64,000 nt of DNA from the NCBI RefSeq assembly GCF_030269365.1, contig NZ_BSTF01000011.1, positions 1 through 64,000 of the forward strand, given 5' to 3'. Positions 55,605 through 64,000 of this stretch are shown piece by piece; position 1 is the stretch's first letter; each line of letters begins with the position of its first letter. This DNA is from Lentzea sp. NBRC 102530 (GTDB lineage Bacteria; Actinomycetota; Actinomycetes; Mycobacteriales; Pseudonocardiaceae). Below the pieces are notes generated by a model, which was not told where the DNA came from, did no database searches, and saw only the letters and a program-made list of their open reading frames with translations. The position numbers and the translations under genes are program-made.

Positions 55605-55680
55605 GCCCTAGTAGCTCAGGGGATAGAGCATCGGTTTCCTAAACCGTGTGTCGCAGGTTCGAATCCTGCCTGGGGCACCA
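55605..55680 (+). tRNA. tRNA-Arg(CCT)
   Basis: Cloverleaf: acceptor GCCCTAG/CTGGGGC, D arm GCTC...GAGC, anticodon stem TCGGT/ACCGT with loop TTCCTAA (anticodon CCT), T arm GCAGG-TTCGAAT-CCTGC, CCA encoded (55678-55680). A TAGACT -10-like box lies at 55589-55594. It is the likely integration site of the element to its right. Confidence 0.94.
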
Positions 55681-55699
55681 CCTTTCGCCGGGTGAAACT

Positions 55700-55735
55700 A
55701 AGGGCTCTGACCAGTGCAAACAGGTCGGAGCCCTT
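55700..55735. terminator. Hairpin between tRNA-Arg and integrase
   Basis: AAGGGCTCTGACC / GGTCGGAGCCCTT, 13 bp with one T-G wobble and a 10-nt loop, then TTGGTCTTT. Terminates the tRNA transcript. Confidence 0.7.
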
Positions 55736-55816
55736 GGTCTTTAGCCGGGACTGAAGTTGATCTCGTCGCCCGTTCGTGGGGCTAGACGTGGTGCGAGTTC
55801 GGCGTAGTTTCGCACC

Positions 55817-57391
55817 ATGAGCACCCCGAAGCGCCCCGCCAAGGGCCGCCAGCGAGGGGAGATCGAGCCCCTCCCGAGCGGTTCGCTGCGCGTCAAGGTC
55901 TACGCCGGCATCGACCCGATCAGCGGTCGTCGGCACTACATCACCGAGACCATCCCGGCCGGTCCGAACGCTGACAAAGAAGCCGAGAAGGCACGCACTC
56001 GGATCATCAACGAGATCGATGAGCAGCGGAACTCGAAGACCAAGGCCACGGTCAACCGGCTCATGGATCGCTACCTCGAACTGCTCGACGTCGACAAGAA
56101 GACGCGGAGGAGCTACGAGGGCTATATCCGCAACCACATCCGGCCGATCCTCGGGAAGCTTCAGGTAGGCAAGCTCAACGGCGAGACGCTGGACTCGTTC
56201 TACAGCGTGCTCCGCCGCTGCCGCGCCCACTGCGACGGCAGGCCGTACATCGAGAAGCACAAGACCACCGACCCCCACGACTGCGCGGAGCAGCAGTGCA
56301 AGCCGCACGTGTGCAACCCACTCGCGAAGTCGTCCATCCGACAAGTGCACTGGTGTCTAAGCGGTGCGCTGAAGCGGGCCGTCAAATGGCGTTGGACCGC
56401 AACGAATCCGCTCGCACAGGCAGAGACGCCTAGGCCCGTCGCAGCCGACCCTCACCCACCCACGCCGGAACAGGCGGCGGCCATCGTCAACGAGGCCTTC
56501 AAAGACCTCTCCTGGGGAATGTTCGTGTGGTTGGCAATGACCACGGGCGCCCGACGCGGCGAGATGTGCGCCTTGCGCCTCGATCTGCTCGACCTGGAGA
56601 ACGCCGTACTGCCGGTCAAGACCAGCATCAGTCAGGACGGCGCAGCCACGGAGGAGAAGGACACCAAGACCCACCAGCAACGCCGAATCGCACTTGACCA
56701 AGAAACCGTCGGGCTTCTACGCGCGTACCTCCAGTACCGCGGGACGAAGGCAGCCGAGTTGGGCGTGAAGGTCGCGAAGGACGGTCGCCTCTTCTCCCCC
56801 GGCTTCGATCACGCGGACTGGATCAAGCCAGACACCGTGACGCAGCGATATCGCCGTATGTGCGCACGGCTCGGTTGGGACATGCACATTCACTCGCTCC
56901 GCCACTACTCCGCGACGGAACTGATCGCGTCCGGTGTGGACGTCCGCACGGTCGCCGGACGACTTGGCCACGGCGGAGGAGGCGCAACCACCTTGCGCGT
57001 CTATTCCGCATGGGTCTCAGAAGCAGACCAGCGCGCGGCAGGAACCATCGGCGGACGGATGCCCACCCCGCCGATCAAGGTCGACATTTCCGGTGCCCCG
57101 GTCTCCACTCTTGAACCAGCAGCAGACAACCCGTACCAGAAGATCGCGGCCGACTTGCGCGGAGCGATCACCTGCGGCGCTCTCAAGCCCGGAGACCTTC
57201 TCCCTACGGTCATCGAACTGAAAGCGCGGTATGGGGTGTCAGCAGGCACTGCCAACCGCGCCATAGCCGAACTGAAGGCGTCCGGACTCGTAACCGCCAG
57301 TCGCGGCAAACGTGCCGTGGTGCTCGCACCAGGAGAAGAACCTGACGTGGCAGACGTCGTGATCATCAAACGCAAGCGAAAGGCCGAGTGA
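55817..57391 (+). CDS. int: Tyrosine integrase with C-terminal GntR-type domain
   Basis: 524 aa. N-terminal arm-binding and SAM-like core-binding domains; a Cys/His-rich insertion (about residues 135-168, CRAHC...HDC...CKPHVC) sits in the core-binding region. The catalytic domain has Arg in TGARRGEMCALR, HxxR in HSLRHYSATEL, GHGGGG and the nucleophile Tyr in RVYSAW (about 396). After it, residues about 437-510 form a GntR-type winged helix (NPYQKIAADLRGAITCGALKPGDLLP...YGVSAGTANRAIAELKASGLV). It drives integration at the adjacent tRNA-Arg. The extra domain may let it bind and regulate its own element. Confidence 0.92.
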   Translation: MSTPKRPAKGRQRGEIEPLPSGSLRVKVYAGIDPISGRRHYITETIPAGPNADKEAEKARTRIINEIDEQRNSKTKATVNRLMDRYLELLDVDKKTRRSYEGYIRNHIRPILGKLQVGKLNGETLDSFYSVLRRCRAHCDGRPYIEKHKTTDPHDCAEQQCKPHVCNPLAKSSIRQVHWCLSGALKRAVKWRWTATNPLAQAETPRPVAADPHPPTPEQAAAIVNEAFKDLSWGMFVWLAMTTGARRGEMCALRLDLLDLENAVLPVKTSISQDGAATEEKDTKTHQQRRIALDQETVGLLRAYLQYRGTKAAELGVKVAKDGRLFSPGFDHADWIKPDTVTQRYRRMCARLGWDMHIHSLRHYSATELIASGVDVRTVAGRLGHGGGGATTLRVYSAWVSEADQRAAGTIGGRMPTPPIKVDISGAPVSTLEPAADNPYQKIAADLRGAITCGALKPGDLLPTVIELKARYGVSAGTANRAIAELKASGLVTASRGKRAVVLAPGEEPDVADVVIIKRKRKAE

Positions 57392-58100: not shown

Positions 58101-59258
58101 TCAGCCCGCGAGTGCAGCAAGCCGCTTCTGTTGCCTCCGCGAGCCAACCCGAGCAGCTAGCAGCCGCGCACGCTCAATGTGTGCGGCTGCTGCGTCTTTG
58201 GCACCGATTGCCGTGAACACCTCGACAAGATCCACTCGGAGTGTGGTCTCGGCGCGAGCAAAAGTCGGATCGAGGCGCTCAAGAACGTCCGAGAGCACCT
58301 CGATAGCTTCCGGGTCGCCAAGTCGAGCAAGCGCGTTTCCGCGCCACCGTGCAAGGTGCGTGGAATCGAACACCAGGTACGGCGTTTCCGATACATCGAC
58401 CTGCGCCGGCATCGCCCGAAGAGCGTCATCGAACGCGATCAGACATCGTGCACGCTCGCCGCTCGCGGCGCACGCTTCGCCGTAGCCCGCAGACAGCCAC
58501 GAGTAGAGCAGACTCGGCACTCGACCACGAGCAAGTTCGAGCGCGTGCCGCGTCAACTGCACGGCGGCATCCGCTTCACCGATGTCAAGCAGAACCACGG
58601 CCTGCCCAGCGCACGCATACGCCTCAAGCTCGACCGACCTAGCTTCCCGAGCGGCGGCCTTCGCGGTGTCGTAGTGGTTCCAAGAATCGTTGACCAGTGC
58701 CTGGTCGAGCGACTGCCACCCGGCAAGCGCAGCCGCGTCTACCAAGAGTTCGGCCAACGCTGCACGAATCGGTTGGTCGAGCACGTCCCGGAGTGCGCGC
58801 TCCATGTGATCGATCTGTGCGCACAACTCACTGCGCAGAGCAGACGCGCCCAGTTTCCTGTCAATGACCCGAGTGATGTCGAGCTTCTGCCGCATCAAGC
58901 CCACGGTGCCCAGGTCGAGGGCACGACTCGCCGCGAACCTTGCACGCAACGCGAGTTCATCTTCCGTGGCCGTGGGAGCGACCTGTTCGACCGACTCCAG
59001 CAGACGTTCGATCGGCACGCCCAACATCTCTTCGAGAAGACGCCCAGTCGCAGCCGTGACGGGTCCAAGGTCGCGGCCGTCATCGCGTTTGCCGGATGCC
59101 AAGCGGCGCACGTGTCGAGGGCTGATCGTGCCTTTCAGTCCGTGGTCGCGCGCGAACACCTCGGCAGCCTCGCTGAACTCTTCGGCGGTCTGCCTGCGCT
59201 GCCGCAGCAGCTCGCCGAACAGCGTCTGTGCCCGTTCCTGCCCGCGTGCCGAGCCCAT
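58101..59258 (-). CDS. HTH regulator with TPR-like repeats
   Basis: 385 aa from ATG 59258 (GAGAGGT upstream). The N-terminus (TLFGELLRQRRQTAEEFSEAAEVFARDHGLKGTISPRHVRRLASGK) is an HTH-like domain; the rest is TPR-like helical repeats (EAYACAGQAVVLLDIGEADAAVQLTRHALELARGR, ALARLGDPEAIEVLSDVLERLDP). Such proteins are common regulators in actinomycete elements. It is divergent from the gene set to its right. Confidence 0.82.
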   Translation of the reverse strand: MGSARGQERAQTLFGELLRQRRQTAEEFSEAAEVFARDHGLKGTISPRHVRRLASGKRDDGRDLGPVTAATGRLLEEMLGVPIERLLESVEQVAPTATEDELALRARFAASRALDLGTVGLMRQKLDITRVIDRKLGASALRSELCAQIDHMERALRDVLDQPIRAALAELLVDAAALAGWQSLDQALVNDSWNHYDTAKAAAREARSVELEAYACAGQAVVLLDIGEADAAVQLTRHALELARGRVPSLLYSWLSAGYGEACAASGERARCLIAFDDALRAMPAQVDVSETPYLVFDSTHLARWRGNALARLGDPEAIEVLSDVLERLDPTFARAETTLRVDLVEVFTAIGAKDAAAAHIERARLLAARVGSRRQQKRLAALAG

Positions 59259-59407
59259 CGGTCGACCTCTCATGCGCCAATGTCAGCGTTGCTTAGCTCA
59301 GGTCCAATCATGGCATGCCAGGGCAATACCAGGTCATTTACACCTCAGGTCAGTCGCGTGAAAGCTGATGTCTGCGGTTCCGAGGTGATGATCTGAGGTG
59401 ATGAGCA

Positions 59408-59710
59408 GTGAAGTCGAACGAAGACTGGTGGGCCAAAGCCGCACGCGCAGAAACGCTGATGCAGGCCCACGAGGCACTGAGCCGTGCACGTCCGCGGCCA
59501 GGCACGGCCGACCCGCGCGTGTGGCGTGACTACCACCTACGCAGCGCGGCCATCTACACCGAAGTTGCCCAGATCGACCGGGGTCACTTCCACGAAGCAA
59601 CGGCGTGGGCCACGTGCGAGCGGCAACGCGGCGAAGAGTTCGACAAGCAGATCAAGTCCAAGAAGACGGAGACGGCAGCGGCTTCATCCTCAGTGGACAA
59701 AGCGAGCTGA
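59408..59710 (+). CDS. Small AICE-associated protein
   Basis: 100 aa from GTG 59408. Charged, helical: EDWWAKAARAETLMQAHEALSRARPRPGTADPRVWRDYHLRSAAIYTEVAQIDRGHFHEATAWATCERQRGEEF. It resembles the small AMED_5909-type proteins found in mobile elements of Pseudonocardiaceae (from memory, not checked). Lies 4 bp before the first XRE regulator, so co-transcribed. Function unknown. Confidence 0.72.
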   Translation: MKSNEDWWAKAARAETLMQAHEALSRARPRPGTADPRVWRDYHLRSAAIYTEVAQIDRGHFHEATAWATCERQRGEEFDKQIKSKKTETAAASSSVDKAS

Positions 59711-59714
59711 CGAC

Positions 59715-60602
59715 ATGGCACAGAAACTCGTCAAAGGCAGAGCAAGCCTGGAGCTACGTGCGTTGGGCCGAACCGTCCTGGGATGGCGCCACATCCGGAA
59801 CTGGTCTCTCGCCGAGTTGGGCGAACTGGTCGGCTACTCCACCGCAACGATCTCCGAAATCAGCAGGGCCGTGATACGACCATCCCCGAGCGACGTCCTG
59901 AGGATCGGCGCTGCGTGTCACGCACCGGAAGACGAGATCGAACTCTGCATCCGCGTGGCACAGCGGGCGAACGACCCTCTGATGTGGGACCGGATCAACG
60001 GCGACGCATGGGCTCGTCTGACGTGGACACCTTGGGACGTCATGGCGGAGGCCAACGAACTACTGATCATCGCGTCCGAGGTAGTGCCCGAACTGTTCCG
60101 CATCAGCACATATCACGAGGCGCTGTGCCAGGCAGGTGCGGCAACCACCGGCCTCAATCTCGATCAGCAGCAGAGCGTGCAGGCACGGCTGGACATGGAC
60201 GCCAAGGAAGCAGCACGACCGGGCAACCACGGACCGCTACACGTGCGTCTTCTTGTGACCGAAGCTGTTCTCACGGACAACGTCGGCGGAGCTCGGACCA
60301 TGATCGAACAGCTTGGACACCTGGAAGACCTCACCGAACGGACAAGCTTCGAGTTCGGCGTAGTGGACAGCAGCGCAGGGCCGTACTTCGGGATGAACCA
60401 GTCGTTCACCGTCATGCGTTTCCGAGCACCACGCTTCGATGACGTCGTCCTCACCCGCACGCTGCACGACGGCGACGTATGGCTTGAGTCTGCCGTTGAA
60501 CGCGCACCGTACGAACGCGCGCTTCTCGCGCTCAACGACGTCGTCAGGTCGCGGCAAGACTCTTCGCACTGGCTCAGCCGAGCGTCACTGGCCCTGCAAT
60601 AA
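59715..60602 (+). CDS. XRE family regulator with DUF5753-like C-terminus
   Basis: 295 aa. HTH_3-type N-terminus (ALGRTVLGWRHIRNWSLAELGELVGYSTATISEISRAVIRPSPSDVLRIGAAC) and a DUF5753-like C-terminal domain (VVPELFRISTYHEALCQAG...LHVRLLVTEAVL...PYFGMNQSFTVMRF). Possible element-specific control gene. No DUF397 partner is seen next to it. Confidence 0.85.
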   Translation: MAQKLVKGRASLELRALGRTVLGWRHIRNWSLAELGELVGYSTATISEISRAVIRPSPSDVLRIGAACHAPEDEIELCIRVAQRANDPLMWDRINGDAWARLTWTPWDVMAEANELLIIASEVVPELFRISTYHEALCQAGAATTGLNLDQQQSVQARLDMDAKEAARPGNHGPLHVRLLVTEAVLTDNVGGARTMIEQLGHLEDLTERTSFEFGVVDSSAGPYFGMNQSFTVMRFRAPRFDDVVLTRTLHDGDVWLESAVERAPYERALLALNDVVRSRQDSSHWLSRASLALQ

Positions 60603-60676: not shown

Positions 60677-61570
60677 ATGCCAAAGAGAATGTCCACCGCA
60701 CGCGGTCGCGAGTTCGGGGCAGGAGTTCGAGCGCTGATCGAACGCACCGGGCTCAGCTCACGTGAGATCGCAACGATCATGGGCTGTCACGAGTCCAAGG
60801 TTTCGGATGTCGTGAACGGCAAAGGTGGGGTCACTCAGGTCGAGGTCGCTGTACTGCTGGGAGTCTGTCGCGCCAAGTCGCCAGAAGCCGACCACTTGAT
60901 GAACCTGTTCCCCCAACGACACGACGGCCGTGGTTGGTGGCAGCAGCACGGCGCTTGCCCGCCCATCAAGCTGCGCACGGCCTTCGAGAACCTGAAGGCC
61001 TCCAAGACACTCGTCAGTTGGCACGCGAGCATGGTCCCGTTCTTCCTTCAGACGGCCGACTACCTCCGCGAAGTGCTGCGCGCCTCCGCCACGATCCCCG
61101 GCGAAGAACTCGAAGAGCGCGCCAAAGCACAACTTGAGACGCAACAGGCCCTGCCGAGCAACGCTAAGCGTCTGTTCTTCGTCCACGAATCCGCGTTGCG
61201 CCTGCAAGTTGGCGGACCCGAGGTGCACGCGTGGCAGATGCAGCACCTCGCCGTCACCGCTAACCAACCGAACACCACCGTCAGGATCGTCCCTGCGGCA
61301 CGCGGTGCACACGCGGGTATGGCCGGACCGTTCACCCTCTTGACCTTCGGGAAGTTCGAGCCGCTGGTGTGGGTGGACACGGAGAACTCAAGCCTGTTCG
61401 CCGAAACCAGTGACGCAGTGGAGGGCTATCACCTGGTCATCAGCGCGCTCACCGCCGCGAGCCTGAGCGAAGCCGAATCCAAGGAGTTGATCGCCGAGTT
61501 GTCTGAGAACGCATGGACTCTTGCGGACCTAAGCGCAGGGTTGCAGGCGCCTCACCCACCAGTGCCGTAG
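60677..61570 (+). CDS. XRE family regulator with DUF5753 domain
   Basis: 297 aa. HTH (REFGAGVRALIERTGLSSREIATIMGCHESKVSDVVNGKGGVTQVEVAVLLGVC) and a clear DUF5753 domain (LVSWHASMVPFFLQTADYLREVLRASATIP...FFVHESALRLQVGGPEVHAWQMQHLAVTANQPNTTVRIVPAARGAHAGMAGPFTLLTF). Paralogous in architecture to the preceding gene but only distantly similar. Followed by a strong hairpin and the 8-mer cluster. Confidence 0.9.
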   Translation: MPKRMSTARGREFGAGVRALIERTGLSSREIATIMGCHESKVSDVVNGKGGVTQVEVAVLLGVCRAKSPEADHLMNLFPQRHDGRGWWQQHGACPPIKLRTAFENLKASKTLVSWHASMVPFFLQTADYLREVLRASATIPGEELEERAKAQLETQQALPSNAKRLFFVHESALRLQVGGPEVHAWQMQHLAVTANQPNTTVRIVPAARGAHAGMAGPFTLLTFGKFEPLVWVDTENSSLFAETSDAVEGYHLVISALTAASLSEAESKELIAELSENAWTLADLSAGLQAPHPPVP

Positions 61571-61811: not shown

Positions 61812-63971
61812 TCAGCGCTCACCGTCGATCACCTCGCCTTCAATGACAGCCGCGCCCCGCAGACGCTCGGCAACCGCGAGCAGATCGGCGACGGCGTAAC
61901 CGCGCACCTGCCTCACACCTTCAGCCGTAGCCACGCGGTCCCGAGTCGACCGGCAGCCCAACTCCACCATGTCGCGGCCGAACGTGGTCATCTCCAGCCC
62001 CAACGCCTCCACAAGCTCAGACGTGGGAACGAAGTCGCGGCTATCACCTCCGTCCGCTACGTAGTCCACAACGGACGCCAAAGGCTCAGGAAGTTCAACT
62101 TCCTCTGCGCGAACAGCCTCTGCTGCCATCGACACTCCGCTACCGATCGCCTTCGCGACGGCAGCGTGATCGAGCATCGGCCGTGCCTCCTGCCCTGCCG
62201 CGTGCCCAGTCAACGTCCCCTCTGCCTCACGCAGCCCACGGCCGCGCTCGCACAACTCCCTCCAGTCCTCGTTCGGCATGTAGAACGTGCGCACGGTCAG
62301 CGCGAGCACATCGGCGCCTGCCTCCGTCTCGCCGTCCGGCCGCAGGATGCCCACGCCCTTGTGCGACGGCAGCAGTCGACTGCTGTCGTAGCCGCGGGTG
62401 TTCATCTGCTCGCCCAGAACGATGTTGCTGTCACGCCAGTCGATGACCCGCAGCGCGAACCGTGAGCCGAGCACCGCGCGCAGCTTGGACGGGATGGTCT
62501 TGCTGTCCGGCCGCTGCGTGGCGAGCACCAGGACCAGCCCGGCCGCCGGCGCCTTCTTGGCGAGCCACGTCAGCAACTCGCCGATGTACTCCCCCGCCGT
62601 GAGTTTCTTTCCCTGCACCTCAACAGGAGTCCGGTCCTCCAGCGGTAGCTGAACCTCATCGATGAACACGGCCGTGATCGGCATGTCGAGCGCTCGATCA
62701 CGGGACATGTCCGGCGTGACCTTCGATTCCGGGCACGTGAGGTCGTCCAACTCCTGCATCCGTCGGTAGCGCCCCTGGACCTCACCTACGAGTTCCACGA
62801 GCCAGTCAATGAGCGCCAGAACGTGTTCTGTGTCGTCGCCGGACATGAACCGGTGCGCCACCTGCGCCGCTGAAATCCAGTCCTTTCCTGCCTTGAAGTC
62901 AGCGACGTACAGCCGTACGTGTGGGTCCAAGATCAAGGCCGCAGCGACCAGTCGAGCAGCCATCGTCTTGCCCTGCCGGGGAATCGCACCGATGAGCAGC
63001 GACGTCCACACCAACGGAAGGTCGATCCGCCGATCACGAGCGTCCCGCCCGAACGGCAACGGCCGCCAGGCGTCCCACCTCTGCACGGCGAGCAAGGGCG
63101 TCCGCAACGGAGGTGCCGCGTACGGGTCTTCATCAGCAACCCACATCGCCACCCGGCCGGCGTGACCGCCGTTTCCCCGGACTCGTTCCACGATGAGCTG
63201 CACCTCATCGACCGCGAGCGCGGAGGCCAAAGCGTCCCGGTTCTTCACGACGTCCGCGGCCTTGCGGGTGGCCGGTAGGTCCACGGTGATGGCCCACCCG
63301 TCGCCCTGCCTGGTCGCCCGCTCGACCAGGCGCAGCGTCTCGTCCTTCCCGATCAGCTTCGCGTCCCGGAACGCGTCCACGAGCACCTGAGGGTCCATCG
63401 TCCACGTCAACGTGCGCGGTCCGGCAAGCACCGCCTTACGCCCAGGACTGCCGTCCTTCCTCCTACCGAGGACAGCGAGCGCCACTGCAACGACACCGCC
63501 ACCGATCCACAGCGCTCGGTGCCTGTACACGAGATCGGCGACGGCACCGACGATCGCCGCACCTGCGAGCACGGCCGCGGTGACCTTCCACCGGAAGAGC
63601 GTCAGTTCACGGATGTCTCCGAACTTGTCCGCGAGCTTCTCCGACTGCTCGGCTGCCTCCCGGTAATCCCGCACGGTGACCCACGACCGCCACCAGCGGA
63701 CGGCGACCATCAGGCCACCCACTACCGCCCCGAGGAACCGGAACGGTGAACGCAGCAGAGCCACCACGAGATCCTTCGCGGCCTGCACCGCGTGAACGCG
63801 ATCCTTCGCCCACAGCGGCACGCGCGGTGAACGCTTCCACCAGTTCATGAACCGGCGCACCCACGTGGCGCGCGGCGCCCGTGGACCGTCGTTCACGAAC
63901 TCACCTTCGAGCACCGCGCGCACCGGCAGACGCGGGTCCGTAACAGCCAACTCCTGATCATCGGTGCTCAT
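61812..63971 (-). CDS. FtsK/SpoIIIE (TraB-type) DNA translocase
   Basis: 719 aa from ATG 63971 (GAAGGTGG upstream). An N-terminal region with membrane helices (LVVALLRSPFRFLGAVVGGLMVAV; WKVTAAVLAGAAIVGAVADLV; IGGGVVAVALAVLG) leads to an FtsK motor domain with Walker A GAIPRQGKTMAARL, Walker B AVFIDEVQ and the arginine-rich LVLATQRPD segment. A C-terminal winged-helix-like part follows (SELVEALGLEMTTFGRDMVELGCRSTRDRV). It would pump double-stranded DNA between cells in conjugation. The coding strand opposes the integrase. Confidence 0.9.
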   Translation of the reverse strand: MSTDDQELAVTDPRLPVRAVLEGEFVNDGPRAPRATWVRRFMNWWKRSPRVPLWAKDRVHAVQAAKDLVVALLRSPFRFLGAVVGGLMVAVRWWRSWVTVRDYREAAEQSEKLADKFGDIRELTLFRWKVTAAVLAGAAIVGAVADLVYRHRALWIGGGVVAVALAVLGRRKDGSPGRKAVLAGPRTLTWTMDPQVLVDAFRDAKLIGKDETLRLVERATRQGDGWAITVDLPATRKAADVVKNRDALASALAVDEVQLIVERVRGNGGHAGRVAMWVADEDPYAAPPLRTPLLAVQRWDAWRPLPFGRDARDRRIDLPLVWTSLLIGAIPRQGKTMAARLVAAALILDPHVRLYVADFKAGKDWISAAQVAHRFMSGDDTEHVLALIDWLVELVGEVQGRYRRMQELDDLTCPESKVTPDMSRDRALDMPITAVFIDEVQLPLEDRTPVEVQGKKLTAGEYIGELLTWLAKKAPAAGLVLVLATQRPDSKTIPSKLRAVLGSRFALRVIDWRDSNIVLGEQMNTRGYDSSRLLPSHKGVGILRPDGETEAGADVLALTVRTFYMPNEDWRELCERGRGLREAEGTLTGHAAGQEARPMLDHAAVAKAIGSGVSMAAEAVRAEEVELPEPLASVVDYVADGGDSRDFVPTSELVEALGLEMTTFGRDMVELGCRSTRDRVATAEGVRQVRGYAVADLLAVAERLRGAAVIEGEVIDGER

Positions 63972-64000
63972 GGCCGTCACCACCTTCGGCGATCTCCGCG

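Follow-up and report, generated by a model that had tools for sequence, protein, structure and literature searches.

An integrase–GntR fusion protein in a tRNA-integrated mobile element of Lentzea and its relatives

The window, a 64,000-nucleotide stretch of the Lentzea sp. NBRC 102530 genome, encodes a 524-amino-acid protein in which a tyrosine recombinase is joined in frame to a GntR-family winged helix-turn-helix domain. Comparison with related proteins indicates that this integrase–GntR fusion is real, old and conserved. We give roughly even chances to the reading that the GntR part is an added DNA-contacting domain of the recombinase, likely working in the att complex, and does not replace a KorSA-type repressor.

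The fusion protein and its element

The fusion gene and the domains of its product are located as follows.

55817..57391, +, integrase–GntR fusion, single ATG frame, 524 aa
55838..56026, +, N-terminal arm-binding domain (residues 8–70); three strands and a helix in the AF2 model, and the residue 17–base 3 association
55865–55867, +, codon of residue 17 (N-terminal domain)
56219..56314, +, Cys/His-rich insertion in the core-binding domain (residues 135–166), from alignments
56495..56977, +, catalytic domain (residues 227–387), from Pfam
57002–57004, +, codon of the catalytic Tyr396
57131..57322, +, GntR winged helix-turn-helix (residues 439–502); PF00392, and Foldseek matches to the AraR and YvoA DNA-binding domains

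The original prediction described a complete tyrosine recombinase with its tyrosine in the motif RVYSAW and a GntR-type domain beginning about 40 residues later, and both statements held. Pfam matched Phage_integrase (PF00589) at residues 227–387 (E 1.9e-18, 67.2 bits against a cut-off of 27.1) and Phage_int_SAM_3, a SAM-like core-binding domain, at residues 78–128 (E 1e-5). Tyr396 lies in RVYSAW, and R246/R247, H359, R362, H385 and Y396 were invariant in an alignment of 16 fusions; the PF00589 match and the R, HxxR, H and Tyr residues together identify a predicted tyrosine recombinase. The suggested HMM search of the C-terminus returned GntR (PF00392) at residues 439–502, beginning 43 residues after Y396 and covering the entire 64-position profile (1–64; E 4.2e-14, 52.4 bits against a cut-off of 27).

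Structure prediction, also suggested, agreed with a GntR winged helix at the C-terminus. In the AlphaFold model (mean pLDDT 71, pTM 0.50), residues 439–502 formed three helices followed by a wing, and Foldseek matched this end of the protein to the DNA-binding domains of YtrA, YvoA and AraR (rmsd 0.9 Å and TMt 0.88 for AraR). The full-length profile match and the winged-helix fold point to a GntR-family DNA-binding domain. The recombinase body matched the Tn1549 integrase best, and also the lambda and Xer recombinases; model confidence was low at about residues 363–435, so that the surroundings of the catalytic tyrosine are poorly modelled. The N-terminal sheet consisted of strands 15–18, 24–32 and 39–46.

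By sequence, the best solved-structure match to the GntR part was 1v4r (E 2.7e-11), which we take to be the repressor TraR of pSN22. T478, R481, A482, R496 and G497, located in the recognition helix and wing, were invariant in the 16 aligned fusions. Three arginine positions, presumably the base contacts of FadR-type GntR proteins, are absent from the fusion GntR domain in the alignment, and likewise from 1v4r. There was no UTRA match in the three fusions scanned in Pfam. An internal start codon producing a free GntR domain found no support, since residue 415, the Met in the GRMP motif, is conserved as well in non-fused proteins whose chains stop a few residues further on.

The fusion gene adjoins a tRNA gene, as the original prediction had suggested looking for, and lies on a mobile element of about 15 kb, referred to in the following as element 1. 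Its other features within the window are listed here.

55605..55680, +, tRNA-Arg (anticodon CCT), the integration target, from ARAGORN
55636..55697, +, left att repeat of 62 bp, from an exact repeat search; identical copies at contig positions 70615–70676 and 85354–85415, outside the window
55698..55737, +, strong hairpin adjoining the left att on its inner side; terminator-like or an att feature
58101..59273, −, backbone gene tpr390, 390 aa; no Pfam family over cut-off
59715..60602, +, HTH_31–DUF5753 regulator; PF19054/PF13560 on ORF 59484–60602
60677..61570, +, HTH_31–DUF5753 regulator; PF19054, E 6.6e-44
61812..63983, −, FtsK/SpoIIIE (TraB-like) transfer protein; PF01580, 27.8 bits against 24

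Besides the int–GntR gene, the two DUF5753 regulators and the TraB/FtsK gene, element 1 carries WhiB-like, HTH_17 Xis-like (L062:1461–1931), NUDIX and CHAT genes, and two further putative regulators with sub-threshold HTH and TPR matches only. The NCBIfam plasmid_TraB match of the FtsK/SpoIIIE protein (E 2.1e-6) was far under its cut-off. The CHAT-domain protein (L062:4265–6451, contig 68265–70451; 32 bits against 24) lies near the right end and is possibly cargo. The sequence at 55698–55750 folded with −29.8 kcal/mol, and the hairpin could insulate int from tRNA read-through; similar inverted repeats were seen in several related elements.

Because the 62-bp att repeat recurs at contig 70615 and 85354, this one tRNA-Arg gene appears to carry two tandem elements (L062, L063) whose integrases differ. 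The integrase of element 2 is accompanied by a small Xis-like ORF and RepSA. At locus L085, a RepSA/Xis set was also found behind the element. ARAGORN, run on 49 loci of which some represent the same place twice, detected a tRNA gene in 43; wherever found beside the integrase, it was just upstream and in the same direction.

Element 1 resembles AICEs such as pSAM2 in being tRNA-integrated and actinobacterial and in having an Int, an Xis-like gene, FtsK/TraB and NUDIX, but differs in having int at the tRNA end, reading away from the tRNA; moreover, none of its scanned ORFs was recognised as a replication gene. The available text of PMC3218068 gives Int plus Tra plus Rep as the AICE working definition. 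By sequence, element 1 has an Int and an FtsK-type Tra, and no Rep family (RepSA, RepAM, Prim-pol) was detected in its ORFs scanned in Pfam, a scan that left out small ORFs such as L062:800–1129. The AICE setting originally assumed was thus not upheld under that definition.

Distribution and evolution of the fusion

We aligned 88 distinct integrase ORFs and dropped three with broken frames (L022, L036 and L056). The remaining 85 relatives comprised 66 integrases fused in frame to the GntR domain and 19 non-fused ones. A profile built only from 18 separate GntR domains recognized all 66 fused proteins at E < 1e-6 and none of the 19 non-fused proteins at E < 1e-3. A sequencing error between two genes, which the original prediction had named as a possible source of the fusion, is excluded by these 66 in-frame relatives out of 85, as is chance read-through. 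In at least one of the 66 fusions (L119) the end of the GntR domain appears altered. In Saccharomonospora (L052), the GntR part is in a different frame from the integrase, and L036 is split in the same way.

Judged by length, 21 of the 66 fusions (e.g., L033–L035, L037, L098–L102, L104 and L120–L123) have an extra C-terminal extension after the GntR domain, which gave no Pfam match in the two extended fusions scanned. Many of these proteins share a similar segment of about 80 residues.

The Cys/His-rich stretch at residues 135–166 had been singled out as a further unusual element. The stretch is real, but it is not linked to the fusion, since five Cys are present in 19/19 non-fused integrases and several fused ones, such as L048 and the seven of clade III, have a shorter, three-Cys form.

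A protein 94% identical to that of the window is encoded by L. aerocolonigenes. Fused and non-fused together, relatives at E ≤ 1e-40 occurred in at least 139 of 249 sampled Pseudonocardiaceae genomes, a lower bound because at most 5 candidates were scored per genome. In a sample of the whole phylum at E ≤ 1e-60, 2 of 396 genomes had a match, namely the genome itself and one matched at residues 192–418 only. By their ORFs, 17 of 24 named loci contain an in-frame fusion. The fusion hosts are Lentzea, Pseudonocardia, Amycolatopsis, Prauserella, Actinoplanes, Catenuloplanes, Salinispora and a Micromonosporaceae bin; the named hosts belong to the Pseudonocardiaceae and the Micromonosporaceae, Salinispora among the latter. 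No plasmid or phage record had one place covering 80% of the fusion query, and viral contigs yielded one distant relative, matched at residues 12–420 only.

In the integrase tree, made by a quick method that leaves deep branches weak, two changes separate fused from non-fused proteins: 16 of the 19 non-fused integrases fall in one clade and L064–L066 in another. All 66 fused GntR domains lie on one side of a branch from the 18 separate GntR domains (SH-aLRT 91), in a tree with few columns in which this branch was not starred. The simplest reading of these trees is one fusion followed by one or two losses, the root of the tree not being fixed.

Eleven close pairs were compared, ten of which were computable for the GntR domain. 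Its dN/dS was 0.04–0.16 in nine pairs and 0.29 in one, within the range of 0.03–0.19 found for the catalytic domain in close pairs by all but the last value, which shows the GntR domain to be under purifying selection. In clade I, mean pairwise identity was 0.62 for the GntR domain, 0.27 for the linker and 0.12 for the tail. Between the window and L038, linker and tail had dN/dS of 0.14 and 0.08; these segments thus do not seem uniformly relaxed in the closest pairs, and their contrast with the GntR domain rests on the wider alignment. Compared with L084, from the same genus, the window was 89% identical across 10 kb of backbone and, in nucleotides, 82–88% in the GntR part and 59–77% in the integrase core. 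The step falls at about residue 430, so the two halves are exchangeable at the linker.

Arm repeats and the int promoter

The region between the hairpin and int contains short repeats and a promoter-like box, and further repeat copies lie at the right end of the element.

55777..55784, +, R1, first left copy of the arm-type repeat (TGGGGCTA); period of 12 bp, also conserved among relatives
55789..55796, +, R2, second left copy of the arm-type repeat (TGGTGCGA); period of 12 bp, also conserved among relatives
55805..55810, +, TANNNT −10-like box, 6 nt 5′ of the start codon; putative leaderless int promoter
55810..55817, −, inverted third arm-repeat copy over the start codon; 8/8 match to the reverse complement of R2
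contig 70502, 70514 and 70552 (starts), outside the window, right-end arm repeat copies

Two 7-mers at least 6/7 alike and exactly 12 bp apart were present upstream of int in 76 of 85 relatives, compared with 2–14 of 85 for each other spacing from 8 to 19 bp. The register of the repeats was set by a script favouring TG and not blind. Right ends were located for 20 elements through the exact att repeat; a relaxed search gave 20/75, one of them doubtful (L048). Among the 20 right ends located through the exact repeat, the pair recurred at roughly −112 and −100 relative to the core in 11/11 fused and, by script, 6/9 non-fused elements. The script found one or no copy in the remaining three non-fused right ends, where degenerate copies are visible in the sequence. 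From one element to the next, the right-end repeats vary together with those on the left.

Base 3 of the repeat followed residue 17 of the integrase, which the AF2 model places in the first N-terminal strand. Glu went with G in 50/53 cases, Asp with A in 9/10 and Arg or Val with T in 9/10 (counts from the 85-row table; the tests used 80 rows). Among the 400 columns from 8 to 407, residue 17 was the best predictor of base 3, with an accuracy of 0.95 against 0.84 for the next column and a baseline of 0.725. Independent pairs, taken from a tree without the N-terminal columns, averaged 6.5 in favour and 0 against, 4.5 being undecided (median p 0.016); the Asp–A association alone comprised only 4 independent pairs. 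In a mutual-information scan of columns 8–510 over 70 of the 85 rows, residue 17 was an outlier for base 3 (z 18.9), followed by R481 of the GntR domain (8.5) and R25 (8.3), and in the 55 fused rows it had a z of 12.2 versus 6.5.

At none of the remaining repeat bases did an N-terminal column in the scan stand out like residue 17. When all 70 rows were used, mean z at these bases was highest for the GntR columns (5.1 versus about 3), which we put down to gaps in the non-fused rows; among fused rows alone it was lowest for them (1.1 versus 1.4–1.6). Since residue 17 predicts base 3, the N-terminal domain is predicted to read the arm repeats, possibly by a one-residue, one-base recognition rule, and the three-strand N-terminal domain of the model and the repeats at both ends suggest a heterobivalent integrase. 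Both the repeats and the residue 17 rule hold in non-fused proteins, and therefore the GntR domain is not needed for the repeats. As the main reader of the int-promoter repeats it was rejected: these occur without it, and base 3 follows residue 17.

A TANNNT box ending 4–10 nt, mostly 6–7 nt, before the start codon was found in 70 of the 83 relatives covered by the start-codon counts (shuffled mean 3.7, maximum 9), and in 12/19 of the non-fused alone. From this position, the int transcript is probably leaderless and driven by a promoter that lies within the left att, beside the repeats. The inverted copy over the int start matched at 6/8 or better in 27/35 members of clade I, and 0 of 2000 shuffles did as well; elsewhere it was seen in 3/22 of clade II (not above shuffles), in 3 of a further 7 and in 1/19 non-fused relatives. 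The clade II count speaks against a simple link of this copy to the GntR domain. A third right-end copy, direct and 50–52 bp after the first, was present in 9 of the 12 clade I right ends found, and of 8 non-fused right ends three had an exact inverted copy at 54–56 and two more had one elsewhere. Such differences in arm geometry between fused and non-fused elements are confounded with the tree.

The distance from the tRNA end to the first arm repeat was 40–43 bp in most of clade I and 47–54 bp in most of the rest, so that the two differ by close to one helical turn; in some Lentzea-type elements it was 70–90 bp.

The role of the GntR domain

The direction of recombination by tyrosine recombinases is normally controlled by separate proteins. 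The original prediction was that regulation and integration may be united in this one protein. The fusion itself is real; that it has taken over the job of a separate KorSA was not borne out by a comparison of elements sharing four or more of five backbone genes (17 fused, 16 non-fused). A separate GntR ORF was present within 15 kb in 2/17 fused and 1/16 non-fused elements. Being rare both with and without the fusion, it gives no sign that the fusion compensates for a lost KorSA, and the GntR domain as a stand-in for such a repressor is not supported. An Xis-like HTH_17 gene was present in 17/17 fused and 16/16 non-fused matched elements and TraB in 15/17 and 16/16, respectively, indicating that both kinds of integrase ride a common backbone. 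Since non-fused integrases do so, the GntR domain is dispensable. An ORF with two consecutive GntR domains follows the integrase directly, or at a distance of about 1 kb, in two loci (L103:14957–15631 (−) and L120:12868–13911 (−)).

For the GntR domain, the most likely function is an additional contact with DNA in the att complex. The integrase lineage of the tRNA-Arg(CCT) element would have acquired a C-terminal winged helix like those of plasmid and ICE repressors, apparently in a single event. The N-terminal domain would read the 12-bp-spaced arm sites at both element ends, and the core-binding and catalytic domains would work at the core in the tRNA gene. The GntR domain, on its variable linker, would most likely help to build or direct the att nucleoprotein complex, and would affect int expression too because the int promoter lies inside that same complex. 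We infer that the domain binds DNA, at some site, with a role in assembly or direction. Against this explanation stand the loss of the FadR-type arginine positions, the dispensability of the domain and the lack of any DNA site found to go with it: no fusion-linked palindrome was detected in the xre–xis divergent region or element-wide (perfect arms of 4–7, present in at least 40% of fused elements; best p 0.15).

Rather less probable is a built-in autorepressor, in which an operator, whether at the int promoter or at another place in the element, would be bound by the GntR domain to repress transcription, and the recombinase would double as a Kor-type repressor. The closeness of the GntR part to 1v4r among solved structures would fit, as would its plasmid matches, which are annotated GntR regulators in the three records examined, one divergent from an FtsK gene. 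The int promoter does lie within the left att region, beneath the arm repeats, and in the comparison with L084 the GntR half goes with the backbone. However, those promoter repeats follow the N-terminal domain, the palindrome search gave nothing specific to fused elements, and non-fused elements on the same backbone lack a separate GntR equally often, leaving no repressor in need of replacement. The originally proposed tying of excision and integration to operator occupancy is plausible, but the repeats over the int promoter also occur where the GntR domain is missing and follow the N-terminal domain, and no GntR operator was found. A protein with three DNA-reading parts, whose GntR domain has its own operator and makes it both an integrase and a transcriptional or directional switch, alongside a residue 17 code by which elements within one family maintain private arm sites, is possible, though on balance doubtful.

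If the domain had no specific DNA target, it might be mainly a protein–protein or structural module that, for example, holds Xis or some other protein of the element, or stabilises the integrase. The missing canonical arginine contacts, the failure to find an operator and the dispensability of the domain on the same backbone would suit such a module, yet the invariance of T478, R481, A482, R496 and G497 in the 16 aligned fusions and the fold matches to DNA-bound AraR and YvoA domains make it unlikely. A chance read-through product without function, as passive passenger or assembly artefact, might be suspected from L036 and L052, which hold the two parts in different frames, and from the existence of non-fused integrases; 66 in-frame fusions in many genera and the low dN/dS of the domain render it highly improbable.

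Among known systems, the fusion most resembles the heterobivalent integrases of the IntTn916/pSAM2 type, with which it shares an N-terminal arm-binding sheet, a SAM-like core-binding domain, an R..HxxR..H..Y catalytic domain, a tRNA 3′ end as target and arm-type repeats flanking the core; its top fold match was also to Tn1549. It differs from them by the extra C-terminal GntR winged helix and the Cys/His insertion in the core-binding domain, and the main text of PMC8138268, in the part available, makes no mention of GntR. KorSA of pSAM2, SCO3932 and 1v4r likewise have GntR winged helices of mobile elements but are separate proteins, whereas here the winged helix is joined to a recombinase; SCO3932 carries a UTRA ligand domain, according to the available portion of PMC8584621. 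In AICEs, the tyrosine integrase and GntR regulators are described as separate in the accessible text of PMC11706625. RdfS, in the part of PMC11963761 available, is a winged-helix protein that works with an ICE tyrosine integrase and is tied to both recombination and transcription, but it is a separate protein, and the fusion's element also has its separate HTH_17 Xis-like gene. Neither an integrase–GntR fusion nor the residue 17 rule was found described in the literature searched, which left out most subscription papers.

The 66 fused and 19 non-fused integrases, 17 and 16 of them on matched backbones, form a natural set that makes the contribution of a built-in winged helix directly testable. 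For integrase arm-binding domains, the arm-site data likewise provide a testable recognition rule for base 3, in which E17 would go with G, D17 with A, and R17 or V17 with T.
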